From a virus: a stretch of DNA of 64,000 nucleotides. The position numbers and the translations under genes were made by a program. The stretch spans positions 62,001 to 126,000 of IMG/VR virus record IMGVR_UViG_3300042895_001344; one strand, 5' to 3'. Within the stretch, counting starts at the first letter, position 1. The number at the start of each line of letters is the position of its first letter. Shown piece by piece: positions 6,310-58,739 of this stretch. The notes beneath the pieces are model-generated. The model had not been told where the DNA came from, did not search any database, and saw only the letters and a program-made list of their open reading frames with translations.

Positions 6310-6311
6310 TT

Positions 6312-31173: not shown

Positions 31174-31782
31174 TTAAGATGTTTGTTTGTTCATGTTAAC
31201 ATAACCAATAACGCAACATGCCGCATCGGCCATGTCATAATTTTCTTTTTTAAGATTACCCGTTTTACCGTATAACCAATTGATATCAGGACATACATTA
31301 TTAACGTGTTCCCAAATGACGTGTTTCTTATCAATATCTCTTGGGTATCCACCAAATAAAACGTTACGTCCTTTATCATTTGGACCAACCAAATCAGGGA
31401 AAGCAAATTTTCTTGAGTTATACGTGGAAATAAATGTTGGTAATACTCCTAGCACATCATAACAGTTCTTAAGTATCAATGTATTATAACGTAATAATGT
31501 TCCTATAGTATAAATGTTATTTGACTGCAACAATGGTTCTTCAATAATAACACGAAGAATTCCCATGTCTTTATAACTTTCCAAATGTTTTTTAAATGCG
31601 TCGGCCTTTTTAATTAATTCCTCAATCTTATCTTCTGGTTGTGGTTTAATTTTTGGTGAAAAATGTGTTAGTTCTAATAATTTAGAACCCGTCATATCAA
31701 ATAAAGCAAAGCCGATCGTCTTCGTGGAAATATCAAGACCGAGAATCTTTGGTTTGTTTTTGAAATTAATATCTATACTCAT
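31174..31782 (-). CDS. RuvC-like Holliday junction resolvase
   Basis: A 202-residue RNase H-fold nuclease. ILGLDISTKTIGFALFD (~13-29) gives the first acidic residue D17; VIIEEPLL gives E81; NYDMADAACCVIGYV gives D183 and D186 of the final cluster. This is the D-E-D-D arrangement of RuvC. It would resolve branched recombination intermediates before packaging, the job of T4 endonuclease VII by another fold. It follows the tail genes by ~40 bases and is separated from the primase by the candidate small RNA and terminator. Confidence 0.8.
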   Translation of the reverse strand: MSIDINFKNKPKILGLDISTKTIGFALFDMTGSKLLELTHFSPKIKPQPEDKIEELIKKADAFKKHLESYKDMGILRVIIEEPLLQSNNIYTIGTLLRYNTLILKNCYDVLGVLPTFISTYNSRKFAFPDLVGPNDKGRNVLFGGYPRDIDKKHVIWEHVNNVCPDINWLYGKTGNLKKENYDMADAACCVIGYVNMNKQTS

Positions 31783-33961: not shown

Positions 33962-35281
33962 TTAATCACAAGGACAAGTTACGTTTGTAAATGATGAGAA
34001 GTATATTGCTGATGGATAGTTTGTTGCCATATAAGCACTATCTTTATTCGTGTCTATTCTTGAACAACATTCACTATTTATCGTCACAAAACTTAAATTA
34101 CCCGCACTATAATCTACATAATATATTGCTGTTAAATCACATCTCTCATACACATCATATGTTTGCGGTGTAGGAGTTGGTGGTAAAGGGGTTGAAGTTG
34201 GTGGTGCTCCTGAACAAGCTGTACAAGCTGTTTGTGCTGTTCCTGTTTGTGCCGAACCATCTCTCATAAATTCTCTTTCATCCGTACCATCAGAAACCCA
34301 AAACGTGTCATTAACTATCATATCACCATATACGTTACCATACATTGTGGAAGATAAACCTTTTACTTTTGTTAAATTACATAAAGACGTACCTACAACC
34401 GTAATATTAACATTACTATATTCACCACCAGTACATGCTGTTGGTCCGTTAACTAAACTAACATAACCACTAAACGTAGTTTCAAATGGAGTTGGTTGTG
34501 GTGTTGCAGTTGCCGGTAAAGGAGTTGGTGTTGTAGGACAACTACAAGATGTTGCACTATAATTTATAAATGAAATAGTTGCACCAACTTGGGATAATGA
34601 ACCATATTGCAAACAATCGTTTATTACTTGTGGTCCAATACCAAATGTTAAATAAATTGTCTCACCGCAACAATCAATATATCTAATATCACCAGCACTA
34701 TCAACTTCAAATCCTACAGATATTACACACTCAGGTGTTGGGGTTGGGGTTACAGTTGCCGGTAATGGGGTTACAGTTGCCGGTAATGGGGTTACAGTTG
34801 CTGGTAATGGGGTTACAGTTGCTGGTAATGGGGTTACAGTTGCTGGTAATGGGGTTACTGTTGCCGGTAATGGTGTTACTGTTGGTGTATTTGTGGGAGT
34901 TGCCGTTGGTACAACTGTTGGTGTGGGAGTTGGTGTGGGAGTTGGTGTAGTCGGCATTCTTATTGTTAAATTATTATAATCAACACATTCAACACATATA
35001 ACAGGGTCACCATCTTTTCCATTAAATTCTGATGGTACCACTCTAATTGTTTTTATTCCCTCCGGAACAACTACATATGTACCATTTAAACTTGATCTTG
35101 GAATATTGGAATATCCAACTAAAGGAAAATATTTTGACGAGTCAGATCCTGAAAGGGATCCTGTACATAAAGATCCTGAATTATTAGTACAATCATCTAA
35201 ACTACCTGTACAAGCATATAAATCAACATTTAATATTGATACACCTAAAGTAAATCCTGTTAATCGTATTGTATATGACAT
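33962..35281 (-). CDS. Thr-Pro-linked multidomain tail protein, 439 residues
   Basis: A structural protein built as a chain. An N-terminal domain (MSYTIRLTGFTLGVSILNVD to ~105, Cys-rich) is joined by a Thr-Pro/Leu-Pro linker (~111-183, seven-residue PLPATVT repeats) to module A (~185-248, with GEIRY-type strand and FGIGPQVINDC), linker, module B (~272-356, GYVSLVNGPTAC ... CTAC), linker, and module D (~375-439, Cys-rich). Modules A and B have close copies in other tail genes of this window. Many cysteines suggest disulfides or metal sites. Likely an adhesin or decoration protein of the tail tip. TATTTATA lies 5 bases upstream; a terminator lies beyond. Confidence 0.7.
   Translation of the reverse strand: MSYTIRLTGFTLGVSILNVDLYACTGSLDDCTNNSGSLCTGSLSGSDSSKYFPLVGYSNIPRSSLNGTYVVVPEGIKTIRVVPSEFNGKDGDPVICVECVDYNNLTIRMPTTPTPTPTPTPTVVPTATPTNTPTVTPLPATVTPLPATVTPLPATVTPLPATVTPLPATVTPLPATVTPTPTPECVISVGFEVDSAGDIRYIDCCGETIYLTFGIGPQVINDCLQYGSLSQVGATISFINYSATSCSCPTTPTPLPATATPQPTPFETTFSGYVSLVNGPTACTGGEYSNVNITVVGTSLCNLTKVKGLSSTMYGNVYGDMIVNDTFWVSDGTDEREFMRDGSAQTGTAQTACTACSGAPPTSTPLPPTPTPQTYDVYERCDLTAIYYVDYSAGNLSFVTINSECCSRIDTNKDSAYMATNYPSAIYFSSFTNVTCPCD
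34214..34468 (-). repeat. Module B, copy 1
   Basis: Encodes ~85 residues (GYVSLVNGPTACTGGEY ... FWVSDG ... RDGS ... CTAC) of the 439-residue protein. It is paralogous to the segment at 36405-36670 of the 1787-residue gene ([17 protein letters not shown] ... FWLSEG ... KSGS ... CVSC). Conserved: the Y-I/V-S-L opening, A-C-x-G-G, F-W-V/L-S-x-G and a final C-x-x-C. Confidence 0.7.
34538..34729 (-). repeat. Module A, copy 1
   Basis: Encodes ~64 residues (CVISVGFEVDSAGDIRYIDC ... FGIGPQVINDCLQYGSLS). It is paralogous to 44139-44324 in the 601-residue gene. The block TFGIGPQVINDC is identical in both copies, and the first Cys-rich strand is closely similar. Confidence 0.8.
34747..34880 (-). repeat. 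21-bp tandem repeat, Leu-Pro-Ala-Thr linker
   Basis: About six copies of a 21-base unit (plus strand ggtaatggggttacagttgc plus one base), coding PLPATVT heptapeptides. Units differ at only a few positions, so this is an active or recent tandem expansion. A second array with the same peptide lies at 36690-36770. Confidence 0.88.
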
Positions 35282-35286
35282 ATTTC

Positions 35287-35294
35287 TATAAATA
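35287..35294 (-). promoter_or_regulatory. TATTTATA motif
   Basis: Octamer on the minus strand, 5 bases before the ATG at 35281 and about 20 bases after the terminator at 35317-35342. Confidence 0.4.
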
Positions 35295-35316
35295 GTATTA
35301 TATACAATTTAAACAA

Positions 35317-35342
35317 AAAACCCCTTAAAATAAAGGGGTTTT
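35317..35342 (-). terminator. Rho-independent terminator
   Basis: AAAACCCCTT and AAGGGGTTTT arms around a 6-base loop, followed by a T-rich tract on the minus strand. It ends the unit containing the 185-residue gene and precedes a TATTTATA motif that would start the next one. Confidence 0.8.
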
Positions 35343-35364
35343 AATATTGTTTTGTTTTTAAATT

Positions 35365-35922
35365 TTATGTTGAGCAAACATTAATGTTCGTTACAAATCC
35401 ACTTGCTGAAATTTGTCCTGTATATGTTGCAAATCCACCGGTTCTATAATAAGCGTGATATTCATCCTCTCCACCATAACCACTTGTTAAACCAGCATCA
35501 GTAAAGAATTGTTCTACATTGGCTGCATTATTTGTTGCTGCAAATACTTCAGTTAAGGGACTTTGAGGTTCTCCACCACTACCAGTAATAGCAGCACAAG
35601 CCTGTCCAATATTCGATTGTGTAACTGATGTTCCTAATTGATATGAATATGATGTTACTACAGGTGTTGGACTCGGAGTAGGTGTTGGGGTTGCGGTTTC
35701 CGGCGGCCACGGGATTGTATTAGTACAAGTACCTGTACTTGCAATTGTTCCCCCTGTTATAGCATCATTAATACCGGTAATTGTATGACCTGTTGTTAAT
35801 TGGGCTTTTGTAATACCAGAGGCTAATTCTGATACAACGTTAGCATTTGTTGTTCCTGAAATATTAAACGGACCCGCCGAAGTTCCTGACGATCCCGATG
35901 TTAATGTAAATGTTACTGTCAT
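35365..35922 (-). CDS. Thr-Pro-linked tail protein with module C, 185 residues
   Basis: A two-domain structural protein. The N-terminal ~75 residues (MTVTFTLTSGSSGTSAGPFN) are strand-like and Gly/Thr-rich. A short [15 protein letters not shown] linker follows. The C-terminal ~95 residues, module C (TSYSYQLGTSVTQSNIGQAC ... NVEQFF ... YGGEDEYHAYY ... NINVC), are clearly homologous to the C-terminus of the 1787-residue neighbour. The gene looks like a detached copy of that domain. TATTTATA lies 16 bases upstream and a terminator follows it. Likely a tail-tip or decoration protein. Confidence 0.68.
   Translation of the reverse strand: MTVTFTLTSGSSGTSAGPFNISGTTNANVVSELASGITKAQLTTGHTITGINDAITGGTIASTGTCTNTIPWPPETATPTPTPSPTPVVTSYSYQLGTSVTQSNIGQACAAITGSGGEPQSPLTEVFAATNNAANVEQFFTDAGLTSGYGGEDEYHAYYRTGGFATYTGQISASGFVTNINVCST
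35368..35655 (-). repeat. Module C, copy 1
   Basis: C-terminal domain of the 185-residue protein. Shares the pattern TSYxYQLGxSxTxS ... AC ... NVEQFFxD ... Y-x-GExExHA ... Y-x-G-x-IS-x-x-G-x-V-x-N ... C with the C-terminus of the adjacent 1787-residue protein (35973-36245). Confidence 0.78.
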
Positions 35923-35938
35923 ATTATTTGTTTCTTTT

Positions 35939-35946
35939 TATAAATA
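35939..35946 (-). promoter_or_regulatory. TATTTATA motif
   Basis: The minus strand reads CAGATATTTATAAAAAG, 16 bases before the ATG at 35922, in the 47-base gap after the giant tail gene. Confidence 0.45.
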
Positions 35947-35969
35947 TCTGTTTATTTTGTTTTATTTTA

Positions 35970-38900
35970 TTAAGGTGCTTCTGCACAGAATGATTTATTG
36001 GATACTATTCCGGTATACGAAATGTTTCCTGAATATGGTGTGGCTCCTACACTATTTAAAGAAAACGCATGTGTTTCGTTCTCACCAGTATAAGTAGTTA
36101 CTAAATTAGGATCTAAAAAGAATTGTTCTACATTAAATGGTTGATCTGCTGTTGCATATACTGTAGTGTAGAAATCCATACCGAAATTATCACAAGCCAT
36201 ACTCGATGATGTATAAGATGGTCCTAATTGATAAGCATATGATGTTGCAGGTGGTGGTGTATTAGTTGGTGTTGGTGTTGCCTCCTCCGGTACAGGTGTT
36301 GCTGTTGCTGGTAATGGTGTTGCGGGTATTGGTGTTGCTGTTGCTGGTAATGGTGTCGCCGTTGCCGGTACAGGTGTTGCCGTTGCAGGTAATGGCGTTG
36401 GTGTTGGACAACTTACACAACCCTCTTGTGGATAAGCTCTATTTGTTGATCCCGATTTTTGATAATATCTTGATTGTCCGAATCCTTCACTTAACCAAAA
36501 ATACCCGTTTGGATCGATTTCTGCTTGAATAATACCACCTTCTATATAACTATTTGCGTCACACATTGTTCCATAAAATCCATTAAATTGGTATGCAAAA
36601 TATGGTGTAAAACTTCCACCATTACATGCATCATAACCACTATCTAAACTAATATAAGCGGTAAACGATGTTGCAGGTATTGGTGTTGCTGTTGCTGGTA
36701 ATGGTGTCACAGTTGCTGGTAATGGTGTCACAGTTGCTGGTAATGGTGTCACAGTTGCTGGTAATGGTGTTGGTGTATTAGTTGCAGGTTGAGCACATAA
36801 TGAACTACAACTTGTAACACCTAATGCAAACATAGTTGTTAATAAAGCAATCTGTGGAGTTGTTGAATTAACGACCTGAAATATATAACCTGTTTCAGGG
36901 TCTAATCTAAACCTTGCGTTTAACACTAATTCTATATCATTAGCAATAACAATAGTTTCAACATATTCACAACTACCATTTTGTAAACATTGATATCTAT
37001 CCGCCTCATAATAGAAATTAGGGTCAGGTGTTGGTGTTACTGTTGGTACATTAGTTGGTATATTGGTTGGTATATTGGTTGGTATATTGGTTGGTACGTT
37101 AGTTGGTATATTGGTTGGTTCTGGTGTATTAGTTGGAACCGCCGTTGGTATTGCCGTTGGTACGTTAGTTGGTACATTAGTTGGTATATTGGTTGGTATA
37201 TTGGTTGGTACTGCTGTTGGTACGTTAGTTGGTAATGGTGTTGGTGTGCTGTAGATAACATCAACATCAACATTAAAGTTACAATCTGGCGTTGGAGTTG
37301 GAGTTGGTGTTGTAGTGTTAGTAGGTGTTGGGGTTGGTGTATTTGTTGCTGGTAATGGTGTAGGGGTTGGTGTATTTGTTGCGGATTCCGGTAATGGTGT
37401 TGGAGTATTTGTATTTGTTGGTGTAGGAGTTGGTGTACTATAGATAACATCAACATCAACATTAAAATTACAATCTGGTGTTGGAGTTGCGGTATTTGTT
37501 GGTGTTGGAGTTGCGGTATTTGTTGGTGTTGGAGTTGGGGTACTATAGATAACATCAACATCAACATTAAAATTACAATCTGGTGTTGGTGTAGGTGTTG
37601 CAGTGTTAGTAGGTGTAGGAGTTGGTGTACTATATACGACTAAGACATCAACATTAAAGTTACAATCTGGTGTTGGGGTTGGTGTTGCAGTGGATGTTGG
37701 GGTTGGTGTTGGGGTACTATAAAATATTTCTACGTCAACAGCAAACTCACAATTTGGTGTGGCTGTTGGGGTTGGTGTTGGAGTTGGAGTGCTAGTAACA
37801 ACTAAAACATCGACTAAGAAATTACAATTTGGTGTTGGGGTTGGAGTAGGTGTTGGGGTGCTAGTAACAACTAAAACATCGACTAAGAAATTACAATTTG
37901 GTGTTGGGGTTGGAGTAGGTGTATTTGTTGCAGGTGATGCAGTTACTGTTGGTGTTGGGGTGGAAGGTAATGGTGTTGCAGTTGCAGGTAATGGTGTTGG
38001 TGTTGGTGAAGGAGTTGTGGTAGGTGTTGCGGTTGGTGTTGGTGTGTTTGTTGGAGTTGGTGTTGGTCCTGGCTCATATATCGCTAATCCTCCACTAAAT
38101 CTACAATCTTTTACATCATTTTGACCAATTGACACATATCCATAATCTAAATAATTTTTTACTGTACAATCATTTGGGCCATATTTGTAAGACGTAAATT
38201 TAATTTTTTCACGTCCTTCATTATCTATGAAAATTTCATATGATAGTATTTTTTGTTTTGTTGTTCCCGTAATTGATGAATTACCAATTTCAGTTCCATA
38301 TTGTGTATTTTTACCTTCTCCATCTATAGTTGATCCAGAATAGGTGTTAATATATGTAATTGTATTTTGTATCGCCCTTTTCCACAATATTTTTAATTGT
38401 GTGTCGTATGATAAATCATTATAATCTACAAGATCATTAGTGGTACCTCCACTATATAAATTAATACTAACACCATCCGTTGTTATAGTATTGTCATTAT
38501 TAATTATTGTTGTTCCAGTTAATGAGGTGGCACCACTTATTAAAACATATGTACATCCCGTTACATTTGTATTCCAAGTATCTGTCTTCCAAGTACCTGT
38601 AGTTTCATAAAGACGAGTATATATTGTACCTGATGTTGGATTACTTGTATTATTGTTTGAACTTTTTAATACTCTAAAATTAATACTTTCTGAATCGTAA
38701 ATAGTATGGGTTGAACCAGATGATATAATTTCATCAAACGAATCTTTATTTAATGCAGATATATTACCTGGATCTGTCATACCAGAATAAACTTTACCGT
38801 CAATTTCAAATACCGGATAAAGTTTAACATAACCGTCAAATTTCGTTTCTCCAGATTCATCATTTTCAATACTAAATCCAAGCTCATTGTCCGCCTGTTT

Positions 38901-41333
38901 TATTAAATAACCAAAATAACTTGTATATCCTGTTGGTATTTCTAAATCAAAATTAATATGGTCTTCCGTTTCTGTAGGTTGGCATCCATATCTATATTGA
39001 TATTTTGATCTACCAAAAATATTATTTGAAATTAAATTACCTCCAGTCCATAAAGTTGTTGCAGGAATAATTTGATCAATAACACTTGTCCAATAAGGAC
39101 TCATTTTTTCAATAAACAAATTAACATCGGGAAAACTATATGGTGTGAAATCTGTATGTGATATGTAATCTTGATAGATGTCCTCTAATGTAATATAATT
39201 CTTCTTATATTTTATTAAATTAGAATTTTTAATTTGTTGATGTATCATTAAATCAACATACTCAGCAAATGTTACTCCTGTTTGTGGTGTTAAACTATTT
39301 GTACCGAATGTTGTACCTGTTGTACCAAAGTCTCTTGATTTACGATATATGTCATAATCAACCGCTTGTGCTGACGATAAATAAACTTCAATATTTTTTC
39401 TATTTAATAATAAACCAGAATTATCATTAAGATTTTCTGTTTGATTGTTATCGATAATATTTTTTAATTTATATCCTGAGTCTAATCCTGGCAATTTTCT
39501 ATAAACGTCAAAATAATCTTCACCATATGTGTATGCACTATTTTTAGTAACAATATTTTTAGTTCTTCCTGTTACCGTTGAATTATCGATATCAATCACT
39601 AATGGTGATTTATGATCTGTAGTATTATCATACCAACCAGATCCTTTTTGGAAAAAATATTCTGTTGATCCCGTAATTCCTTTAGGTAATAACGTATCTC
39701 CATTAACGGGATAATTTTCAGAATTAAATGTTGTTGTACCTGTAGTTATACCAGTATAATATCTATATGGAAGATATGTTACACCATTAATAGTTCCACC
39801 TGTTGGTAAGAATATTCCTGTTTTGTAAATTTTAGTTCCCGATATAACATCATAAATGTCACCTTTTAAATCAAATGATTTAGGTAAAGATATTACCTTG
39901 TAAACGTATTGATTAATTTTAATCATTGGTTCGGGTGCACCTAAAAATCTTAAAAAGAATTCTAAAGATTGTCTTGTACCTTTTGATTTATAAATGTAAG
40001 CCAAGTTAACTAACAACCTTCTATAAAATTCATATTCGGCATCTATTAAAGACGTTCCCGATACTAATCCAGAATATTGTTGTGATGTCTTAGTGTATAA
40101 TAATTCATCTAAACCTTTCTCATCAATTAAGTTAATTGTATCTAATCCTAAAGTATTCGCTAAATTCTTTAACAATACATCGGGTACGTTATTAATACCG
40201 TCATAACTTACATTTCTCATGTAAGCAATATTATCAATATATTTTTTTACACTATCAAAACTTTGTCCATATAATTGAAATAATGATTCGGCCTTTTTAT
40301 CGGGACTATCAAATTCAAACAATTGAGGTGATGTTAAAAACCTAACAAATAAGTTAGATTTATAATCATCAATTTCATCTGCTATGTTACTTAAATTTGT
40401 TAAATAACTATCATATTCTAAACCTGTAATTTTAATGTTCCAATCTTCCTTATCGGATAACGGCCAACTATAATTTACTGAAATTAATTCGGTTTTTGTT
40501 TCATCAAAACTATCTCTTGGAACTTTGAAACTTGAGGTGTACTTTGGAAAACTATCTCTATTTAATAAACTTTCCTCTAAATCATCTAAACCTTTAAAGA
40601 ACTCTTCAATAACACCATCATTTGGTTTAATTAATATATTTTCAGAAAACCCCGTTAAGTTACCAAATGGTTTACCACTTACCTTTAATGAAATTATATT
40701 ATCACTATTAGGTTCAATATATGAAATTACATCATAGGTTTTTCCACTTATTGAAATTAAATAATTTTTAAAAGAAGTGTAAAAATCTCTGTTTTTATTA
40801 ATTGAAGGTAATATGGTATTACTTTTCGGTGTGACCATAACAATCGAAAATGGATTGTATAGTTTACTATATTCAACTTGAAACTGAGTGGTATTACTTA
40901 TATTATCGTATGTAATATTATTAGCGGTAAAATTCGTTACTTTAATTAAACTATTAGAATCAATCAAAATAGCCGCCGGAAAATTATTAATTATATTAGT
41001 TGTCGCAACACCTAGTCTACTTTTTAATGATCCAAATAAAGATTTAGCGGCATCATTTTTAGAACCTTTAAATTTTATTTCTTTATTTTTACTTGCGGTA
41101 CCACTCGTAGTTGTACTTGAAGTTTGTCCTTTTAAATCATCTAATGTTAAAAAATTAGAAAACGGATTTGTTTTAAAATTCTTTGTATCTCTTTGTATTA
41201 CCTCACTATCTAACGCAAAGTTCGTATTAGTCAACTGACCGGTACCCGTGGTAATTTGATTACCAACTAGGTTGTCACTGAATGTATCGGCACCACTTGC
41301 AGCTTGACTTGGAATTTTACGTAATTTTGCCAT
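35970..41333 (-). CDS. Giant baseplate protein with gpI-like region and modular Thr-Pro tail
   Basis: A 1787-residue structural protein. After ~330 residues the text [20 protein letters not shown] and later [20 protein letters not shown] then [13 protein letters not shown] match the core of phage tail protein I / T4 gp7-type baseplate wedge proteins (K-G-T-x-x-S-L-E-x-x-L-R). From ~1090 it becomes a chain of short cysteine modules (seven x-C-x-F-x-V-D-V copies) and Thr-Pro linkers, then module B, linkers and a C-terminal module C. The N-terminal part is likely built into the baseplate, with the C-terminal chain projecting. It overlaps the upstream gene by one base (TAATG). Confidence 0.72.
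35973..36245 (-). repeat. Module C, copy 2
   Basis: C-terminal ~90 residues of the 1787-residue protein ([18 protein letters not shown] ... [11 protein letters not shown] ... [10 protein letters not shown] ... SNKSFC). Homologous to the C-terminus of the adjacent 185-residue protein. Confidence 0.78.
36405..36670 (-). repeat. Module B, copy 2
   Basis: ~88 residues of the 1787-residue protein ([17 protein letters not shown] ... CVSC), flanked on both sides by LPATATP-type linkers. Homologous to module B of the 439-residue protein. Confidence 0.7.
36690..36770 (-). repeat. 21-bp tandem repeat, second Leu-Pro-Ala-Thr linker
   Basis: Four copies of the unit ggtaatggtgtcacagttgc plus one base on the plus strand, coding the same PLPATVT peptide as the array at 34747-34880 but with a few different synonymous bases. 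Confidence 0.8.
37030..37235 (-). repeat. 12-bp tandem repeat, Pro-Thr-Asn/Ala linker
   Basis: Runs of ggtatattggtt and related 12-base words on the plus strand code [14 protein letters not shown] linkers of the giant baseplate protein. Several units are identical in sequence. Confidence 0.8.
37240..37850 (-). repeat. Seven cysteine modules with Thr-Pro spacers
   Basis: Seven tandem units of the form C-x-F-x-V-D-V followed by two or three strand residues and a TPTP-rich spacer: two [12 protein letters not shown], one [12 protein letters not shown], one [12 protein letters not shown] and three [12 protein letters not shown]. The DNA of several units is almost identical, showing recent duplication. 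Confidence 0.8.
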
Positions 41334-42244
41334 TAGATATTAGTGATTGTATCAAAGTTTAAAGTTTCATCAATATCATTACGGTTTTCTCTAACCTCAT
41401 ATAGAGTTTCGTTAAAGTCGTCTTTAATTTCAAATAAGTTATATTGTTTATAGATGTTATTATCTTTATCGTAAATTGTGTAAATACCTGGAGTAACCGC
41501 CTTAGTTTGATTACCGTAAAGGGCATTTGCAAGTGTTGACGCATCATGTTCAACCATATCAATTTCGATAGTTGTTGGGTTCATATATGTATTTGATAAA
41601 ATAACCATTTGACCTGGACTACCGATAAATGGAACCGTGTTTGGTTTATTCGATGGTGCTGACGATGGTGTAATTGTTAAAAACATAAAGTTTGTTGCAC
41701 CTTCACTATATTGATATCTTACCGACTTTTGTGTTGAACTATTTAGATTCGCAGTAACAGGTGTACAATAAAAAGAAGATGTAACAATTTTATAGAAATT
41801 TGGTGTTTTTTGTTTGTTATTAGAATTTATATATTCAATCCTATATCCCACTAAACCTTGTGGTGTAAATTTATTTCTATCTTCAGACTTAACATTTGAT
41901 AAATCCAAGATTAGTCCTCTTACTGATGGTAATGATGCTAAAACACCACAATCCATAATTGTTGTTCTAATTTGTTTTGGTCTGATATGAAGTGTGTATA
42001 TTCCTAAATCGGGAAAATCTACCGCATTTAATTTAAGGTTATATAAACCTCCTAAAATTTCCACACCGCTTTCTCCACCGGTATTTCCGTTGTGTAAAAT
42101 TGGTGTTAAAACCTGATTTGGTGTTAACTTTTTTAAGGTTGTTATTGACGTCGAGATTCTATTTGGTGCATAATGATATAGAATTTCTACATCATCAGGT
42201 GATATATCCGCCGGTCTAACTATTCCATATGATCCTACTGCCAT
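41333..42244 (-). CDS. Putative baseplate structural protein, 303 residues
   Basis: Not recognised by name. Position between baseplate-type genes and a strand-rich composition ([20 protein letters not shown] and [20 protein letters not shown]) suggest a virion component. The C-terminal part is helical and charged ([20 protein letters not shown]). No enzymatic motif, signal peptide or membrane helix. Start [20 protein letters not shown] has TATTTATA 10 bases upstream. Its stop overlaps the start of the giant gene by one base, so the two are translationally coupled. Confidence 0.6.
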
Positions 42245-42254
42245 ATTCTTTTAT

Positions 42255-42262
42255 TATAAATA
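42255..42262 (-). promoter_or_regulatory. TATTTATA motif
   Basis: The minus strand reads TTATATTTATAATAAAAG, 10 bases before the ATG at 42244. Confidence 0.42.
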
Positions 42263-42268
42263 TAAATC

Positions 42269-43696
42269 TTATTGTTTTTTAACTTTAAAAAATCCATTTC
42301 CATAAACATCTAACTCACTCATGTTGTCAATTTCACCCAATCTTAGGTTAACCTCCATGACACCTTGACGTCCTCTTTCCACAAAAATGTCAGAATATAC
42401 TGTTGGGTCATCTATAAAACCTAAAAAATGTTCGTTTCTTGTTAACATATGATTTATTACGTATTCTGTGTCATATTGAGTTGTGTTTCCGATTGTTGTA
42501 AGGTATGGAACGGTGTTTATTGTATTTCCCGTTATTTCATATGTGTAACCACTAGTTGGTCCAAATCTATAGTTTGGAACACTACCCGTGATCATTGTAT
42601 ATCCATCTGCTAAGTCCATATAATATAAACTTCCGCTGTCATTAGGTAAAGTGTAACCAGAGTATAGTGAACCTGAAAATAAACCTGTTGTGTAAGATGA
42701 TGTACTCACGGTACTTTCACCATATTTTCGTAATTCACCTATTCTACTAATACCTATTGCCATAAATTTAAATGGCTTGGTGGGTGTTGCAGTATATCCT
42801 GTGTTAGAATAATCATAATCATTTAAATAATTTTGATAGTTACTTCCTGTGTAATAAATGTTACCAGGTAGGGTAAAACCGGTGGAGGTTCCTAATACAT
42901 TATCTATTGTAACACCTGTTGATATTGTTATATTTTTTATTATTTTTTCTTTATTCCAAGGAGAATCTAATGATAATGTTAATGTATAACTACCCGTTGT
43001 ATTTCCCGTTACCGTTGGATATGTGTGTCCCGAATTTGGGAAATTAGAATATAATACTCCACTATTAACAGTTAACCCTGATGTATATCCATCTCCCCAA
43101 TCAATTGTAAATTCTTGATCAACAATTTTTCTTAATTTATTTGGGTTTACCGTATTATAAACCGTAACAACTGAACCTGATTGTTTATAAGTAAAATTTA
43201 TTAATTGTTCGACCTGTTCAATATTACCATCAAAGGATGACATTACACCCATTTCATCCGCACTTGCTTCAAGTGCAATTGGTACTACATATTCATAACC
43301 CGTAAATCCCGTATATAAATTCCAATTATCTCCATCCCATTTATAATATTTCCCCTTTGTATTATTAATTGCAGTTTGTTCAACTTCTTTCCAATATACA
43401 CTACCAGATGGTATGTTATTTAAATTACTACCTGTTAATGATTGATACGTTTTACCACTATAAAATAAAACAACGCTTCCTGTGTATGTAATATCGGGAT
43501 ACCATTTTATGTCACGTACCAAATGTAAACTACCTGTCTCATTTGAAGATGGTACCATACCATCTATTGGGACTGATGCGCTATACCAAGATTTCCAATC
43601 ATTTATTTCTGTATCAAACCAAAAAGTACCAGTTTCTGAATGTAAATTAACATCAGGTATTTGTCTTTTTAATATGGTATATTCGTTCTTTTTCAT
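42269..43696 (-). CDS. Putative tail structural protein, 475 residues
   Basis: Not recognised by name. A Gly/Ser/Tyr/Thr-rich, strand-forming protein with an Ig/PKD-like central segment (GHTYPTVTGNTTGSYTLTLS, ~230-255). The C-terminus (RGRQGVMEVNLRLGEIDNMS) looks like a conserved baseplate interaction end. It lies in the uninterrupted tail block, 4 bases from the upstream gene. Tail role inferred from context. Confidence 0.6.
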   Translation of the reverse strand: MKKNEYTILKRQIPDVNLHSETGTFWFDTEINDWKSWYSASVPIDGMVPSSNETGSLHLVRDIKWYPDITYTGSVVLFYSGKTYQSLTGSNLNNIPSGSVYWKEVEQTAINNTKGKYYKWDGDNWNLYTGFTGYEYVVPIALEASADEMGVMSSFDGNIEQVEQLINFTYKQSGSVVTVYNTVNPNKLRKIVDQEFTIDWGDGYTSGLTVNSGVLYSNFPNSGHTYPTVTGNTTGSYTLTLSLDSPWNKEKIIKNITISTGVTIDNVLGTSTGFTLPGNIYYTGSNYQNYLNDYDYSNTGYTATPTKPFKFMAIGISRIGELRKYGESTVSTSSYTTGLFSGSLYSGYTLPNDSGSLYYMDLADGYTMITGSVPNYRFGPTSGYTYEITGNTINTVPYLTTIGNTTQYDTEYVINHMLTRNEHFLGFIDDPTVYSDIFVERGRQGVMEVNLRLGEIDNMSELDVYGNGFFKVKKQ

Positions 43697-43700
43697 TTTA

Positions 43701-45506
43701 TTATATTACATCAAATGTTATACTTGCATATTTTCCATTATCATATGAACTTGTTATTGTGAAATTATAAACTCCTTCACCCAATGTTACATATTGTGTA
43801 CTGTCAGGTGCTGTTAAAGCTGGCGATGTGGCATTTAAAAATATATCACCAGCAACAAAACCACTATTCGAACCACCACTTGTTGTTCCACCAAAAACAT
43901 TTAAAGTAACTTTTACACTATAACTAGCATATACTGTTAACGTTCCTACCGCATAACCATTATTAGAATATCCTGCATTTGTTGATCCTGTCACACTATA
44001 TGGTAAAGGAGTTGGTGTATTTGTTGGTGGTAAAGGAGTTGGTGTTGCGGTTATTGGTCCTGCTGTTGGGGTTTCTGTTGGTGGTAAAGGAGTTGGTGTA
44101 TTTGTTGGTGGTAAAGGAGTTGGGGTTGGGGTTGGTGCACATGATATTTCACCATAAAACACGGATGAAATTGATGCAATTACTCCTGATAATGAATTAT
44201 TTTGAATACAATCATTAATTACTTGTGGTCCAATACCAAATGTCTCGATAACTTCGGTACCCTCACAATTAAAATATCTAACAGTTCCACCAAAATCAAC
44301 ATCAAAACTTACTGACGTTACACAAGGACTTTCTGTAGGTGTTGGGGTTATTGTAGGAATTACTGTGGCCACAGGTGTAGGTGTTGAAGTTGGGAAAGGT
44401 GTTGACGTTGGTCTAGGTGTCGCCGTAACTCCACCGATAGGTGTTGGAGTTGGGGTTGATACTGGTAATAATACTCCACCTCCTTTTTCGTAGAATGTTA
44501 TACTATCAGTCGTTGTATAACCTGTGCCTATTCTACCTAACTTTGTTGTTCCCGTATATCTATATATTTGATACGTTCTTTCATAATGATCAAAATCAAT
44601 TTGATAATACATATCTTTTTCTTCTGTTATATTATAACTTGTTGTTTGACCTGAATTTATAAAATCTAATATCTCACCTCTATCCGCATTGAAAAATTTT
44701 GCCGTCATGAAAAATGTATTCATTCCATGATAAAAATTTCTATTATAGGTTATTTGATTTGGTATTGTAAATGTTTGACCTGTCCAACCAATTAACGTTG
44801 TTCCTGTTGTTGGTATATTAACTTGTGTTATTTCATTATTTTCATTTGTAAATAATATAGTTTGTATTGTAGTTCCAGTTCCAAAAACATATTGATCTAA
44901 TGTTGTTGTTCCGCTTAAATTTGTGTCGGTTAAAACACTCTCATTATCAAACCAAAACAAATACATGTTTTCTTTGTTTCGATAATTTGAACCCGTAAAA
45001 ACAGGTACATATATGTTATACCCATAGTTACTACCTGTATGAAAATATTTTTCACCTAAGGGTAATGCTAAATTTTTAGAATTTATTAATCTTCTATTTT
45101 GTCTTGTCGGTGGCTCACATGTTAAAACATAATTTGTTATACTACCAGGTGTTTTATAAAACTCTAACCTAAAAAAACTTTCAATTGACTGTTTTGTCAT
45201 CAACTGATTTTCTTGTGTTGATATACCTACAGGATTATAATCTAAAACATAATTTGGTGTATCTCCACTTGAAAAATAAAATTGAAACCATATATCTGTT
45301 TGTGACATTGTAATACCACTGGTTGTTTTATCATATGGTTTATGAATGTATCTAACTGTTTCATAATTTTTAGATGGATTAATAATATCTTTTAAAATCT
45401 CATCTTCAAAATCGGCAAGATTATCCTGCCAACCTAAATCTGTTCTAAAATTTTGTTCACTATTAACTACAATATTTAAATTGTTACTATTTTTTAAAAT
45501 TTCCAT
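43701..45506 (-). CDS. Thr-Pro-linked tail protein with module A, 601 residues
   Basis: A structural protein. Residues 1-340 are a non-repetitive virion domain (QSIESFFRLEFYKTPGS). A Thr-Pro linker (~348-392) leads to module A (~395-456, CVTSVSFDVDFGGTVRYFNC ... FGIGPQVINDC), a second Thr/Pro linker (~457-505) and a C-terminal ~100-residue strand domain (YAVGTLTVYASYSVKVTLNV and YVTLGEGVYNFTITSSYDNG) like a bacterial Ig-type or receptor-binding domain. Module A is also in the 439-residue protein. It overlaps the upstream gene by one base (TAATG). Confidence 0.68.
   Translation of the reverse strand: MEILKNSNNLNIVVNSEQNFRTDLGWQDNLADFEDEILKDIINPSKNYETVRYIHKPYDKTTSGITMSQTDIWFQFYFSSGDTPNYVLDYNPVGISTQENQLMTKQSIESFFRLEFYKTPGSITNYVLTCEPPTRQNRRLINSKNLALPLGEKYFHTGSNYGYNIYVPVFTGSNYRNKENMYLFWFDNESVLTDTNLSGTTTLDQYVFGTGTTIQTILFTNENNEITQVNIPTTGTTLIGWTGQTFTIPNQITYNRNFYHGMNTFFMTAKFFNADRGEILDFINSGQTTSYNITEEKDMYYQIDFDHYERTYQIYRYTGTTKLGRIGTGYTTTDSITFYEKGGGVLLPVSTPTPTPIGGVTATPRPTSTPFPTSTPTPVATVIPTITPTPTESPCVTSVSFDVDFGGTVRYFNCEGTEVIETFGIGPQVINDCIQNNSLSGVIASISSVFYGEISCAPTPTPTPLPPTNTPTPLPPTETPTAGPITATPTPLPPTNTPTPLPYSVTGSTNAGYSNNGYAVGTLTVYASYSVKVTLNVFGGTTSGGSNSGFVAGDIFLNATSPALTAPDSTQYVTLGEGVYNFTITSSYDNGKYASITFDVI
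44139..44324 (-). repeat. Module A, copy 2
   Basis: ~62 residues of the 601-residue protein (CVTSVSFDVDFGG ... TFGIGPQVINDCIQNNSLS). Matches copy 1 at 34538-34729 with the same TFGIGPQVINDC block, although the two genes are almost 10 kb apart. Confidence 0.8.
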
Positions 45507-51066: not shown

Positions 51067-52896
51067 TTAAAATGTAGCCGTTCCTAATGTTTTAACCCTA
51101 ACTTTAATATCTTTATTTGGGAATCTAATTTGGAAGATTTGATTTGACTTCATAAAGATCATATTATCGGACTGATTTATCAATCTAGTGTTTTGATCTG
51201 TTGTTTGTGATGGTTCTGCGGATGAATATTCACCACCTATTTTACTGTAAACTCTGGTCTCAATTACATTTATCACACCTGATACACTACCTACGATTTT
51301 GTTTAAAGCACCGATAAACAAAGGATCACCCATTTTACGTTTTTCTATTGCAAAATGTTCAATTGTATCCTGAATTACCGTTTGTATAATATCTGTTTGA
51401 TTTGCGTTTTTATCTATGTTTAAATCAATTTCTAACCCCATATCGATGACTTCACCACTTACAATATCCAAATAGTCATTAATCATTTTATATTCCGTAA
51501 GATAGGTTAAAATGTTTGATTTTAATGTATATGAAACAGTATCGGTTAAATTACCTTGGTCATCGTATGATAATAATTTAATTCTAATCTTATTATCTTC
51601 CTCCATAACATTAACCTTCGCAGGTGCTCCATATGTTGATGGCATCGTTTCAATTAATGATTTATAATCATTTAATGTTACCGCTCTATTTTGTGCTGCA
51701 AAGTTATATGAAACCATATTACGAATTTCTTCGATTGTTGGTTGATCTGCACCACCTACTGCAGGTGTTATATTATTAACTCTAAGTGATTGTACCACAC
51801 CAGTATTCTTTGCTGGTACAGGTCCTGAAACTATAAATTCAACATCATCTACGTTTGTAATTACATTCACCCCTAAGTTACTATCTTTACCACCACCCAC
51901 ACGATATTGTACAAATAATGTTGTATTAATTTTTGGTGTAGTTCCTAATGATAGATTATTTAAATAACTCGCCAAATTAACTTTCAATTGTCCTGTCATA
52001 TAGTTATCCAAATTGTCTAATGGATTAACTGTACCCGAACCAAATGTTAATGAAAAATAACCTTCAGGTGTATATTCTGTTATGAATTTATTATTTACAG
52101 GTAAAAATGTTCCTGCAGTAAAATTATTTGTATCTGATACAGATGTTGGGTCTGGTACAAATACTTTGTCTTGAATTAATGATTTAACCTCATACCACTT
52201 ATTTGTGATATTAGAAAATTCATTTGATGTTGGATTACTTGTAAAAGTTGTACCGTCCTTATGAATAACAGATGTTACTCCTAATACGTTTTGTTCAGGT
52301 AAGTATAATTTTAAGAAAGGTTTTTGATCCGCTTGGTTTATAACTCTTCTATAAATTTTTGTTATACCATTTACAACTGGTTCTCTTTTTGTAATTGTAT
52401 AAGATATTAATCTATTATTTACATCAAAATTTGGTATTTTTAATCTATTAGGTTCTCCTTTTTTATTAAATGGAACCGAAAAATCAATATCATCAATTGT
52501 TTCAAAAACTTGACCTCCACCTGAAACTTGTGCTCCACTTTTTAATATACCCAAATATCTAACATCTTCTTTATCTCCTCTTACATCTACAGTAATTGAG
52601 AAATCACATAACGCTACTGATGGTCTAACACCTGGTAATCTAATACCATATGTTTTTGCGATATGATATAATGATTGTCTTTGTTGTGCAAAATCCAACA
52701 TAGTTTCCTGCCAAACTCTATCAATATGAAAATGTAAATTATCCGCAACCGCGGCATTAATATCTAATAATACCGAATAAATCGATGCGTCGTTAAAATT
52801 TTTAACTAAATCAGGATAGTAATTTTTAGTTAATGTTACTAATTCATTTCTTAATCCCTGAAAATCTCTTGTTGCGTATGATATCTGTTTACTCAT
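51067..52896 (-). CDS. gp6-like baseplate wedge protein (J family)
   Basis: A 609-residue protein of the T4 gp6 / P2 gpJ baseplate wedge family. Typical N-terminal part: YATRDFQGLRNELVTLTKNY, then FNDASIYSVLLDINAAVADN and HFHIDRVWQETML; these are the conserved helices of gpJ-like proteins. Later TIEEIRNMVSYNFAAQNRAV and TLNDYKSLIETMP match the second signature (R-A-V-T-x-x-D-Y). The gene follows the gp25-like gene by 1 base. It joins six wedges around the hub. The family call is firm; T4 gp6 is 660 residues. Confidence 0.88.
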   Translation of the reverse strand: MSKQISYATRDFQGLRNELVTLTKNYYPDLVKNFNDASIYSVLLDINAAVADNLHFHIDRVWQETMLDFAQQRQSLYHIAKTYGIRLPGVRPSVALCDFSITVDVRGDKEDVRYLGILKSGAQVSGGGQVFETIDDIDFSVPFNKKGEPNRLKIPNFDVNNRLISYTITKREPVVNGITKIYRRVINQADQKPFLKLYLPEQNVLGVTSVIHKDGTTFTSNPTSNEFSNITNKWYEVKSLIQDKVFVPDPTSVSDTNNFTAGTFLPVNNKFITEYTPEGYFSLTFGSGTVNPLDNLDNYMTGQLKVNLASYLNNLSLGTTPKINTTLFVQYRVGGGKDSNLGVNVITNVDDVEFIVSGPVPAKNTGVVQSLRVNNITPAVGGADQPTIEEIRNMVSYNFAAQNRAVTLNDYKSLIETMPSTYGAPAKVNVMEEDNKIRIKLLSYDDQGNLTDTVSYTLKSNILTYLTEYKMINDYLDIVSGEVIDMGLEIDLNIDKNANQTDIIQTVIQDTIEHFAIEKRKMGDPLFIGALNKIVGSVSGVINVIETRVYSKIGGEYSSAEPSQTTDQNTRLINQSDNMIFMKSNQIFQIRFPNKDIKVRVKTLGTATF

Positions 52897-52897
52897 C

Positions 52898-53350
52898 TTA
52901 TATGTTTAAAATTATAAAGTCGGAAGTTGAAAATGACCCGTTATTAACTGTATATTCTATTTTAACTACCGCCGTATATGGTTTTGTCGATTCATCAGAA
53001 ACCCTAAATAATCTTTCATCTTCATCTTGTGCGATACTTCTTTGTCGATTTGGATCGTCTTCCGCTGATGTTATAGATATATTTGTAATATCTAAGTTTG
53101 GTATGAATTTTTTAACTCCTTCTCTGATTTCTTCTTCAATTAAATTATATGTAATTGCGTCATTTTGATCGAAAATGTATTGATATATTCTTGTTCCAAA
53201 ATCAGGTAAGTAATATCTACTACCTTTTCTTGTTAAAATAAGGTGTATAAGATTGGCTCTAATCTCCTTTTCAGGGATTTCAGTCATATTAAGATAATCT
53301 CCTTTGGGGCTATCTCTAAATGGATAATCAATACCGTACGTTACTGCCAT
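52898..53350 (-). CDS. gp25-like baseplate wedge protein
   Basis: A 150-residue protein of the gp25/GPW-like family (lysozyme-like fold without catalytic need). NMTEIPEKEIRANLIHLILT leads into RKGSRYYLPDFGTRIYQYIF, which contains the conserved L-x-x-x-x-G-x-R-x-x-x-P-x-x-G motif, and EEEIREGVKKFIPNLDI. Start is the ATG at 53348-53350 (MAVTYGIDYPF); the ORF as computed began at a TTG two codons earlier. It joins gp6 in the wedge, and the two genes lie one base apart. Confidence 0.88.
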   Translation of the reverse strand: MAVTYGIDYPFRDSPKGDYLNMTEIPEKEIRANLIHLILTRKGSRYYLPDFGTRIYQYIFDQNDAITYNLIEEEIREGVKKFIPNLDITNISITSAEDDPNRQRSIAQDEDERLFRVSDESTKPYTAVVKIEYTVNNGSFSTSDFIILNI

Positions 53351-53380
53351 ATTCAATAAATATAGATAAACCTAAAATGG

Positions 53381-53548: not shown

Positions 53549-55809
53549 TAGATACTTGTTACGTCACATTGTGCTCCACTACAAGCCTGAGCAGCATAGT
53601 CAGAAATACTCTTGTATTCTGGTTTATTCAAAATTTCACCGAAGTTTACTTCTTTGAATTGACGAGTAATAGTTTCCCACTTATAGAATAAATGAACGTC
53701 TTTTAAACAATAAACCATTTTCTTCATATCTCCTTTAAAGTAATTCTTAGCAAACTTTTTGGCTCTTGATAACCAATATTCTTTTAATAAAACTTGTTCT
53801 CTTGTTCCTGTTAATAAAATACTTCTATCGAGTAATGTGTCACAAGCCAACCATAAGTTTTGATTAAAGTAATGTAAACCATCAATAATTAAACCTGACG
53901 CTAATAATGATCCTTTACCATATGTTTCAATAACTTCATTTAAATTCAATACTGATGTAAATGGTGCTTGATTGAAATCTTTGTCTCCGTAATCTGACAT
54001 GAAACTAACAGCGGTAAATAAATCTCTTTGTTCCCAAATATAATCAACAATTGCATCTTTATCATCAATAATAACTGTACAAGATGTATTATGATTTACC
54101 GGCATGTAAGCACATAACTCAGGATTAGTTCCCGCATTTACCCAATGTTTTTGAACCAACTTAATTAACTCAAGGTGTTTAATACCTTTCATATCCTTTT
54201 TGAATAAACCAACTTTTGGATTTTCAACTGGAACAAATACAACGTAATCTGATTTAGTTGAAGACCATACACTTTCTTCTAATAAGAATCCCATGTTTTC
54301 TTCCAACCATTTTGCAGTATTACTTTCTTTATTCAACTGCATGATACGGAAATACTTCTCAGAGTGTTCAGGATGAATACCTGACGCAGTTCCTAACACA
54401 ACTGATGCATTACCTGAAGGTTTTACACACGTAGTTCTTGCCGCTTGGTTAATTCCAATTACCGCCGCTAATTCTTTATTAGCATCTTTTACAGCTTGTG
54501 CTCCTTCTTCTAATAATTCAGCATTAAATAATTTAGGATTATTCATCCAACCTGTAATACTAACACCTAACAAAGCTTCTCTTTCAAAGATCGCTTTACT
54601 TGTTTCACCTAAATAAGGGAAATTAGTATATCCCGCTTGTAATGTTCCTAAGAAAGAAGCATCTTTACAAGCCTTTAAAAACTTTTCTTTTGTTGTTGCC
54701 TTCTCAGCATTGATCTCGGTTAAATTACAACCTTGAATACCGAACTTAGATTTGTTGTCTTTAACATATTGTTCAACTTCATCATATTTGATTTTACCAA
54801 AATCAATTGTATCTAATACAGGGATTTTCATAATCTCAAAACATGGATTAAACATATCAAACCAACTGTTCGCAAAAACAAAACCAATATCATTTGCTCC
54901 GTCATTTAATTGTACCAAGTAATTGAATTGTTCTTTAACAACTTCACTTCTCAATAAAATAACTGAGTTATTACTACGACCTCTTTGTGGGTTTTCAATT
55001 CTCCAATTACCTGTCTTAGCGTGGATCATCTCATCATCATTAGGATCAACAATCATATTCAAAGCTGAACGTCTAACTCCTCCCGATAATACAGCATCCG
55101 CTGAATGACAAATAATATCAAACGCTAAAATAGGACGAATTTTTTCTCCTTCATTAGTTAACCACTTTTCAATTAAAGATTCTATTTTTTCTAAAGATTG
55201 TTTTAAACCTTCAGGACCAGGTGCTTTAAAACCACCGCTGATGAATGAACCTTTCTCACGAATTAAAGAATAATCTAATTTAACTTCATAACCTGCATAT
55301 TCAGGGAATGGTTGTTCGTCAACAAAGTAAGATGATAACAATACACCCAATGCGTTTGCCCAACCTTCAATTGAATCTTCAATATAAAAAGTTTTAGTTC
55401 CTAAAGTTCTTTTTTGTATTCTACTTAAATTATTTACAAAAGGAGTTAATAATCCTCCACCAAATCCACAACCAGATAATGCCAAGTAAAAAATCTCTTG
55501 AAATACTCTATTACGAGCAATGTGTCCTGATGTACAGTTAAACATTCTCGTGTTATGTTTCATAATTTGTTCGTGTCTGTATTGTAAGTTTCTTTGTGAA
55601 GCTAATACAGCTTGATCTTTCATACTCTCAACGGCAGATTGTAAATATGGTTCAATTGCCTCAGCATAATCTACATATTTTTTTCTGTGTCCGTCAATTA
55701 TGTTCTCACATGCGTCTTCCCACGTTTCATATCTTTTTTCATCTTCCTTCCATTTGAAATAATCTGAGTGTAACTTTAAGTCACTCAGAAATTTTTTACC
55801 TTTCTGCAT
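53548..55809 (-). CDS. Class II (adenosylcobalamin-dependent) ribonucleotide reductase
   Basis: A 753-residue reductase making deoxyribonucleotides for phage DNA. Motifs: FNCTSGHIAR with C92, the thiyl-radical loop NPC323FEI with E325, GCNLTEI with C361 (second redox cysteine), and the C-terminal reductant pair C743-SGAQ-C748. The single-chain layout and absence of a beta subunit gene nearby fit the monomeric RTPR-type class II. About 30 extra residues separate the NPCFEI and CNLTEI motifs compared with RTPR. Thioredoxin and glutaredoxin (8.1-8.7 kb) could be its reductants. B12 must come from the host. It overlaps the DUF5522 gene. Confidence 0.85.
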   Translation of the reverse strand: MQKGKKFLSDLKLHSDYFKWKEDEKRYETWEDACENIIDGHRKKYVDYAEAIEPYLQSAVESMKDQAVLASQRNLQYRHEQIMKHNTRMFNCTSGHIARNRVFQEIFYLALSGCGFGGGLLTPFVNNLSRIQKRTLGTKTFYIEDSIEGWANALGVLLSSYFVDEQPFPEYAGYEVKLDYSLIREKGSFISGGFKAPGPEGLKQSLEKIESLIEKWLTNEGEKIRPILAFDIICHSADAVLSGGVRRSALNMIVDPNDDEMIHAKTGNWRIENPQRGRSNNSVILLRSEVVKEQFNYLVQLNDGANDIGFVFANSWFDMFNPCFEIMKIPVLDTIDFGKIKYDEVEQYVKDNKSKFGIQGCNLTEINAEKATTKEKFLKACKDASFLGTLQAGYTNFPYLGETSKAIFEREALLGVSITGWMNNPKLFNAELLEEGAQAVKDANKELAAVIGINQAARTTCVKPSGNASVVLGTASGIHPEHSEKYFRIMQLNKESNTAKWLEENMGFLLEESVWSSTKSDYVVFVPVENPKVGLFKKDMKGIKHLELIKLVQKHWVNAGTNPELCAYMPVNHNTSCTVIIDDKDAIVDYIWEQRDLFTAVSFMSDYGDKDFNQAPFTSVLNLNEVIETYGKGSLLASGLIIDGLHYFNQNLWLACDTLLDRSILLTGTREQVLLKEYWLSRAKKFAKNYFKGDMKKMVYCLKDVHLFYKWETITRQFKEVNFGEILNKPEYKSISDYAAQACSGAQCDVTSI

Positions 55810-55842
55810 TTGTTCTTTTTTCTTTTATGTTTGTTTTATTAA

Positions 55843-57219
55843 TTACTTTCCGGCCACTTGTTGTCTCCTTTTAAATGCTTCCGCCGCTCTATTAGCATTT
55901 ATCTGAACTTTTTGTTCTTCGTGTCCCAATAATGTATTTTGAGACTCTGTATCAATAAGAAGAAACTCGTTATTGAATTTACAGTTTTGGAATACAACAC
56001 CATCTCGACCAATACGAGATTTTAATAATGTAAGAGTTGCCAAGTTATGATCTTTTTGTTCTAATGTTTTACCAATAGATAATATAACGTGTGCAATTTG
56101 TGCTTTCTTAATTGACCCACCCATTTGATCTCCAGTTACTACTTCACTTGAAATTGACTCACGGTTACCTTGTGTTGCCGTCCATATTGCCATTTCAAAT
56201 TCTCCTGTCATTGATTCTAAACTTCTCATAATAGAACCTTCACCTTTCCATTCTTCACCATTTGTAGATTTATCAGTTGATATACAATCAACATAATCTA
56301 TAACTAATAAGTCTACTTTTTTAGTTCCGTCAGAATTCATCTTTCTGATTTTATTTTTAATCTCAGAAACTGTAACATTATCACTTGCTAATTTCAATAA
56401 CTTCAAACTACCTTTAGATTTAGCTTGAGCCTCTTCTACTTTAGCCTTTACTTCTTCTTTAAATTCAGGTTGACTATCAGGTGCAATCTCAGTCCAAATC
56501 GTATAGTGTTTTCTTTTAATATTACCTGGATTGTCCTCAAAGAAAATCTGAACAACGTTATAACCTAAGTTATATGCGGTATTAGCGAACTTAGTAAGTA
56601 AGGTAGTCTTACCAGTACCTGTAGGAGCTAATACAACCCCCAATTCTCCGATCCCTAACCCACCCTTAAGTAAGTTGTCAATCCCCACAATACCTGTCGG
56701 TAATGGGTGTCTAAAGTCCTTTTCTAACGCACCGTCAATATCATGAAATACATCCGTTGCTTCATCATTTGAAATACCAACTTGTAATGCCTTTTGAATA
56801 ATTTCCTCAATTTTATTATAAGCCTCAAACTCTCCACTCTCAATAATACTCTGTACACTTTTTAACTCTCTTTTTAAGTTTTGTTGTTTACAGAAGTTAA
56901 GTGCCGTGTCTTTAACATATTCAATTTGGGAATCATTATTTTTAATTGCTTCTAATGTGTCTACGTGAATTTTAGAGGAATCTTTGTTACCGCCTTCAGC
57001 CATGATTTTCTGTGCCAATGTATTATAATCAGGGATTTTGTTGTAATTCTTATACAACTCCTTTGTATTTTCCATAATAAATCTAAAAGAGTTATTATCA
57101 AAAAACTTACTATCTAATACATCAATAATTGTTTCTCCGTACTTCTTATCTTCAATGATCGCTTTAATAAGGGATTGTTGAAACGAAAACCCCAAATACC
57201 CAAAATTCCTTTCTTCCAT
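55843..57219 (-). CDS. Replicative DNA helicase, gp41/DnaB-like
   Basis: A 458-residue RecA-fold hexameric helicase corresponding to T4 gp41. The N-terminal ~150 residues are helical (the DnaB N-domain type). Walker A is APTGTGKTT (198-206), with E228 in FFEDNPG, and Walker B is LLVIDYVDC (304-312). A late CTATQGNR-type sensor (TATQGNRES) follows. It unwinds DNA at the fork, working with the gp61-like primase (30-31 kb). It lies in the replication block between an unknown gene and the reductase. Confidence 0.88.
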   Translation of the reverse strand: MEERNFGYLGFSFQQSLIKAIIEDKKYGETIIDVLDSKFFDNNSFRFIMENTKELYKNYNKIPDYNTLAQKIMAEGGNKDSSKIHVDTLEAIKNNDSQIEYVKDTALNFCKQQNLKRELKSVQSIIESGEFEAYNKIEEIIQKALQVGISNDEATDVFHDIDGALEKDFRHPLPTGIVGIDNLLKGGLGIGELGVVLAPTGTGKTTLLTKFANTAYNLGYNVVQIFFEDNPGNIKRKHYTIWTEIAPDSQPEFKEEVKAKVEEAQAKSKGSLKLLKLASDNVTVSEIKNKIRKMNSDGTKKVDLLVIDYVDCISTDKSTNGEEWKGEGSIMRSLESMTGEFEMAIWTATQGNRESISSEVVTGDQMGGSIKKAQIAHVILSIGKTLEQKDHNLATLTLLKSRIGRDGVVFQNCKFNNEFLLIDTESQNTLLGHEEQKVQINANRAAEAFKRRQQVAGK

Positions 57220-57244
57220 AGTGTTTATTATATATTGTTTTTTC

Positions 57245-58730: not shown

Positions 58731-58739
58731 TTGTTAAAT

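Follow-up and report, generated by a model that had tools for sequence, protein, structure and literature searches.

Analysis of a 64,000-nucleotide stretch of viral DNA, bases 62001-126000 of the IMG/VR record IMGVR_UViG_3300042895_001344 (record length 217,142 bases; the stretch is called the window below), revealed tail-region genes that end in trains of small cysteine-framed modules joined by Thr/Pro (TP) linkers. The modules recur between genes of this genome and have been swapped between related phages. Taken together, the data indicate that the trains probably represent an accessory repertoire of tail adhesins diversified by homologous recombination, whose exchange would alter what the tail adheres to. 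Four of the genes, S1 to S4, lie in the window; S5 (record positions 54007-56880) lies outside it, on the side of collagen-like fibre genes. The features of S1 to S4 are listed here in window coordinates, with (-) for the minus strand and ~ between successive modules; G001 (3300042892_005961) and the contigs with L numbers are relatives.

43701-45506 (-): S1, 601 aa; conserved tail/baseplate-region backbone (aa 1-347), then the TP-linked accessory tail A~G
44136-44324 (-): module A in S1
43704-44000 (-): module G, terminal domain of S1; G001 has B~H instead, L041 another domain
35970-41333 (-): S2, 1787 aa; large conserved N-terminal backbone, then a train of linkers and modules
37239-37904 (-): seven CxFxVDV mini-repeats in S2, split by TP linkers; eight in G001
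37020-37244 (-): S2 linker encoded by 12-bp repeats
36789-37019 (-): module D in S2
36672-36788 (-): S2 linker encoded by 21-bp repeats (TPLPATV)
36408-36668 (-): module B in S2
35982-36248 (-): module C, end of S2
35950-36251 (-): S2 tract in common with S5 (record 54.0 kb); 94% nucleotide identity over module C
35365-35922 (-): S3, 185 aa; short N-terminal domain, linker and module C (35371-35655)
33962-35281 (-): S4, 439 aa; N-terminal domain, linker and A~B~F
34730-34954 (-): S4 linker encoded by 21-bp repeats (PLPATVT, six units; five in G001)
34541-34729 (-): module A in S4
34214-34477 (-): module B in S4
33965-34165 (-): module F in S4

An earlier note on this DNA had proposed that modules A, B and C each occur in two different tail genes. 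All pairs aligned beyond chance, over the modules themselves and not merely over the linkers, and the proposed coordinates were right to within a few bases. The two copies of A were 56% identical in amino acids and 70% in nucleotides (E 9.5e-19 when the whole record was searched), with TFGIGPQVINDC common to both. The B copies of S4 and S2 were more divergent, with 27% identity (E 8.5e-6 genome-wide, 3e-9 when aligned as a pair) and agreeing cysteine positions, and the C copies of S3 and S2 were 45% identical (E 1e-11). Module A has four conserved cysteines, B also four and C two. The tandem repeats said to encode the linkers were also present at the places given: a 21-bp unit repeated 6.7 times at 34745-34884 (96% matches), a 21-bp unit repeated 4.8 times at 36670-36770, and a 12-bp unit repeated 16.6 times at 37042-37234. 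S5, which the earlier note had overlooked, carries one B copy (84% identical to that at 34.2 kb) and three copies of C; over the 217-kb record, A was counted twice, B three times and C five times. Nine more recurring families (D, E, F, G, H, I, J, K and M) were delimited from the genome and its relatives, some of them in relatives only, and further TP-linked proteins are encoded at record positions 56959-59283 and 153692-160253. The CxFxVDVxVxY mini-repeats of S2 measure about 14 residues with one cysteine each, too short for a domain; similar mini-repeats were seen in the distant relatives L055, L061 and L078, there with other linker types.

One exchange involves module C at the ends of S2 and S5. 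These copies lie about 41-44 kb apart in the window phage and share 94.2% of their DNA sequence; between the orthologous S2 genes of the window phage and G001, the figure is only 80.2%. In a phylogenetic tree, the two window copies were grouped with support of 99/98 within the S5 copies and apart from S2 of G001. The borders of the tract could be placed at base level: it starts at the last linker codon, where identity rises from 53-67% to 97%, and it ends 20 bases past the stop codon, beyond which identity is about 40%. It is a precise intragenomic tract, and the conversion may have run in either direction.

Module B has moved horizontally between phages. On the backbones of L141 and L125, it was 82-86% identical to the window copy, the other proteins there being unrelated or 35-47% identical, and in L146 the B of S2 was 89% identical on an S2 backbone of 58% identity. 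Over all such phages, whose other proteins were unrelated or 35-58% identical, the identity of B was 80-89%. Synonymous divergence (dS) between the B of S4 in the window and the L141 and L125 copies was 0.47-0.53, and the ratio of nonsynonymous to synonymous divergence (dN/dS) of the modules was about 0.2 in most comparisons. Because the synonymous divergence is unsaturated and this ratio is about 0.2, transfer and purifying selection each fit module B and protein conservation alone does not. A whole cassette, B~linker~H, is common to S1 of G001 and a protein of L125 with about 84% DNA identity on two different tail backbones; it begins within a TP linker and extends to the stop codon. The mark of domain mosaicism, a fragment at least 70% identical in otherwise unrelated proteins, was found for B (84% of amino acids between S4 and S5) and for C (94% between S2 and S5).

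About 90 related viral contigs, retrieved by the S2 core, modules A, B and C, the S1 backbone and S4, were compared for the order of their modules. The earlier note had supposed that domains can be swapped or multiplied, and swap, gain, loss and multiplication were all seen between close relatives, which contradicts an invariant order. Among 15 distinct S2 genes, the module string differed in all 102 pairs with a core identity below 99%. The S2 cores of the window phage and G001, for example, were 98.4% identical, with the strings D~B~C and E~C, respectively; by segment, identity was 96% in the backbone, 83% in the following linker and 27% in the D~B stretch. The S1 backbones of the same two phages were 93% identical and the end domains 21%, and S4 was 79-100% identical along its length. 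The S1 backbone of L041 was 97.4% identical in DNA and yet carried a different end domain, and differing end modules were found on S1 genes with 97-98% identical backbone DNA. L042 carried an S1 that was 98-99% identical on a genome whose S2 core was 89% identical. Close relatives thus kept the N-terminal part and differed in their C-terminal domains, a further mark of mosaicism. Unit numbers also varied between the window phage and G001, with six versus five PLPATVT units and seven versus eight CxFxVDV repeats. Among 57 complete and distinct S1 orthologues, 34 had a TP-linked train, 22 had none and one had an SGS-repeat tail (the first two numbers computed, the last two counted by hand; tail-less genes were those of fewer than 380 aa with at most two xP). 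Because 22 of the 57 end at the backbone, the module trains are accessory.

Some variation around S2 was recorded separately. S2 and the adjacent S3 frequently share one module family (C/C or E/E), as in the window, L034, L042, L086, L089 and L108; a rule that the S2 end module co-varies with the next small gene was broken in L049, L051 and L038 and was dropped. In L077, L097 and L099, the slot next to the S2-like gene encodes proteins, the longest exceeding 2,300 aa, that consist almost entirely of PSVTP/STSVTPT repeats. By eye, cadherin-like or BspA-like (NATSFNQNIGNW) repeats replace the cysteine modules in the S2-type gene or its neighbor in the distant relatives L067 (12963-16985), L085 and L110. 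The SGS-repeat tail of S1, found in L200, is of the repeat type of two long SGSSGTSG collagen-like tail fibre genes at window positions 1081-8012, which are built on 9-bp-based repeats.

Microhomology between the genes was concentrated in the linkers. Different TP genes of the genome shared 67 exact matches of at least 20 nt, 56 of them in linkers, and ten non-TP genes (45 pairs) shared none. When synonymous codons were shuffled, the number of such matches dropped to 20.8 (13-33), so the linkers are more alike in DNA than their common peptides require. Two genes for candidate exchange machinery flank the tail cluster, one on each side:

58740-59720 (-): UvsX/RecA-like recombinase
31174-31782 (-): RuvC-like Holliday junction resolvase (phrog_159, E 3e-6)

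No reverse transcriptase (PF00078), serine recombinase (PF00239) or tyrosine recombinase/integrase (PF00589) was found in the 217-kb record, which may be incomplete. The only inverted repeats found were four imperfect pairs (73-90%). The features expected of a target of a diversity-generating retroelement (DGR) or of an invertible tail fibre were therefore not seen, the former for want of a reverse transcriptase and the latter for want of a site-specific recombinase, with only these imperfect inverted repeats.

In the account that we consider likely, dispersed tail and baseplate proteins, S1 to S5 and others, carry the trains of small beta modules and extended TP linkers at their C-termini as optional add-ons to conserved backbones. 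Homologous recombination swaps cassettes that usually reach from one linker to the next or slightly beyond the stop codon; it acts within a genome, by gene conversion from gene to gene, and also between co-infecting phages, and slippage alters the length of the linkers. The most likely agents would be the UvsX/RuvC-type machinery of the phage itself or that of the host; the presence of the two genes makes the phage enzymes candidate drivers of the exchange. The modules would be displayed on the virion and bind glycans or proteins of the host surface or the extracellular space, and swapping them would retune host contact. A bolder version of this proposal, which we consider doubtful, is that linkers and short common 3' flanks form an evolved design for cassette exchange, in which repeat-encoded linkers would be kept recombination-ready in the DNA, the genome would serve as its own library of tip modules, continual gene conversion among at least five tail genes would change host contact, and the modules would have folds with no solved counterpart.

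AlphaFold2 models, built from alignments of the window copies and those of relatives, were confident and reached a mean predicted local distance difference test (pLDDT) score of 91 for C and of 84 for A~B, with a low-confidence linker. In BFVD, the C model matched uncharacterised phage proteins (E 6e-5 to 0.02), one of them from Cellulophaga phage phi17:1; Cellulophaga is a genus of Bacteroidota. A phage protein family of unknown function, phrog_21885, was matched by 9 of 24 members of the C superfamily. By profile, the modules were neither BACON nor immunoglobulin-like (Ig-like) domains: the window modules had no BACON match and no Pfam match, and the Ig-like signal was one marginal match to Big_5 (E 0.0089) in one of the 24 C relatives. 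Matches between C and the spike of coronaviruses, in sequence and in structure (E >0.01, template modelling score at most 0.26), were attributed to chance. Relatives of B and C were absent from 50,697 named or deposited phage records, and those of B from 84,980 GTDB species; the pattern search for B used a closer subset of copies, the full alignment being too diverse.

S1 to S4 lie on the minus strand within the tail/baseplate gene cluster, a location characteristic of receptor-binding proteins, and adjoin two baseplate wedge genes:

51067-52896 (-) and 52898-53356 (-): gp6-like wedge gene and second wedge subunit (phrog_219, phrog_261)

Several observations weigh against an adhesin repertoire shuffled at its linkers. 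Neither the C nor the A~B model matched a PDB structure at E ≤0.001, and Pfam holds no family for the window modules A, B and C, so that adhesion is argued by analogy. Halves of clearly unequal identity occurred in 6 of 109 close module pairs, indicating that conversion happens within modules as well, and divergence of the linkers may sharpen apparent borders beyond the real ones. The interpretation in the earlier note was supported in part. Its view of linkers as recombination points is supported by the base-level borders of the S2/S5 tract and of the B~H cassette and by the excess of linker identity; exchange inside modules speaks against a strict version of it. A genome-specific linker dialect was not supported, with 4-mer cosine similarities of 0.71 within contigs and 0.70 between equivalent slots of different contigs. 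Three further assemblies of this strain, each obtained from another metagenome, were 100%, 100% and 99.99% identical over 15 kb; rapid switching within a population should therefore not be claimed.

The main competitor, less likely than an adhesin repertoire but the only other account with appreciable weight, takes the modules for ornaments with a structural or protective role (as spacers, glycosylated mucin-like stalks or aids to stability), shuffled almost neutrally, instead of adhesins that bind receptors or glycans. It would accommodate trains that are dispensable, being absent from 22 of 57 S1 orthologues and replaced in one by SGS repeats, as well as long Thr-rich linkers and the lack of a recognised binding fold. 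However, purifying selection (dN/dS mostly about 0.2), the wide diversity of the tips and their position among baseplate genes speak more for a contact function that is exposed and under selection. A purely vertical history of old duplications that then diverged, with near-identity due to strong protein conservation rather than to exchange, is improbable. The B copies of S4 and S2 (27%) and the A copies of S1 and S4 (56%) are indeed old duplicates, and a dN/dS of about 0.2 agrees with this account; it is already contradicted for C, whose paralogues are closer than its orthologues, and for B, whose copies show low dS on otherwise unrelated backbones, and it does not explain one backbone with differing end domains.

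Programmed diversification by a DGR, an invertible segment or a site-specific cassette system is very improbable. The borders are indeed cassette-like, but none of the enzymes named above was found in the 217-kb record, the genes of the cluster are all on one strand, the four inverted-repeat pairs are imperfect, and the exchanges resemble homologous tracts. Least probable of all is an artefact of short-read assembly, in which misjoined repeats would have created the arrangement: the TP repeats are long and repetitive, yet the arrangement recurred in the three further same-strain assemblies and in both G001-type assemblies, and the frames are open throughout and under purifying selection. An adhesin repertoire exchanged by homologous recombination remains the account that we favor.

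In bacterial cellulases, Pro/Thr-box linkers join catalytic and carbohydrate-binding modules. The likeness to the window proteins lies in the extended Pro/Thr linkers between independently folding binding modules; cellulases are cellular enzymes, not virion proteins. The gp37/gp38 adhesins of the T4 superfamily contain conserved motifs, glycine-rich in gp38, between hypervariable segments, and these motifs are possible recombination points. As in the window phage, the variable binding segments alternate with short stretches, conserved or repeated, that may act as recombination points; the glycine-rich motifs of gp38, however, lie inside one adhesin domain, whereas the window phage moves whole TP-linked domains among many genes. 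Related structural work is given in PMC12892980.

The earlier note knew of no described phage system with this exact design; what is new is the module families and the details of the design, not the general principle. Domain mosaicism of phage receptor-binding and tail proteins has already been published (Smug et al., 2023, PMC10684548), with high-identity fragments in otherwise unrelated tail proteins and, between close relatives, different C-terminal domains behind a conserved N-terminus, as here. The present case differs in its dozen or so module families without a Pfam match, its use of several genes per genome, its repeat-encoded TP linkers and its intragenomic conversion; the accessible part of that text mentions neither linkers nor paralogues. 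In crAss-like phages, tail proteins carry BACON domains in tandem, and single domains have in part spread horizontally (de Jonge et al., 2019, PMC6949934); display of Ig-like phage adhesins confers adhesion (PMC13370021). These systems resemble ours in belonging to Bacteroidota phages and in their tail-associated strings of small beta domains with partial horizontal transfer, but the window modules are cysteine-framed, TP-linked, spread over several genes and without a BACON match. Because tail-domain mosaicism and mobile tail repeats were already known, the novelty lies in the unnamed module families, in one stock of modules serving several genes of the same genome, and in cassettes running from linker to stop codon with intragenomic conversion.

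The closest named relatives, by the baseplate wedge protein, were Flavobacterium phage immuto, Microcystis phage Mel-JY01 and a 484-kb uncultured phage (25-28% identity). A bS21 gene, assigned by position and by eye, lies at about record positions 182922-183113 (also given as 182937-183083) on the strand opposite to neighboring portal-like and terminase-like genes. Freshwater Bacteroidota myophages carry bS21 in this genomic context (PMC9723584), on the opposite strand near the genes for the large terminase subunit (TerL), the portal protein, the major capsid protein (MCP) and the protease; here, the portal-like and terminase-like neighbors were checked. Because of this match, the host of this large freshwater phage is likely a member of the Bacteroidota. 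The account of the bS21 phages differs in that linked tail modules are absent from it, the words proline and threonine occurring nowhere in the text.

The base-level borders described here bear on how a phage keeps an exchangeable repertoire of tail modules spread over several genes without a retroelement or an invertase. About a dozen small module families have been delimited, and the ones tested turned up in uncultivated phages only. Two questions can now be tested directly, namely the binding partners of the modules and the possible upkeep of repeat-encoded linkers as points of recombination.

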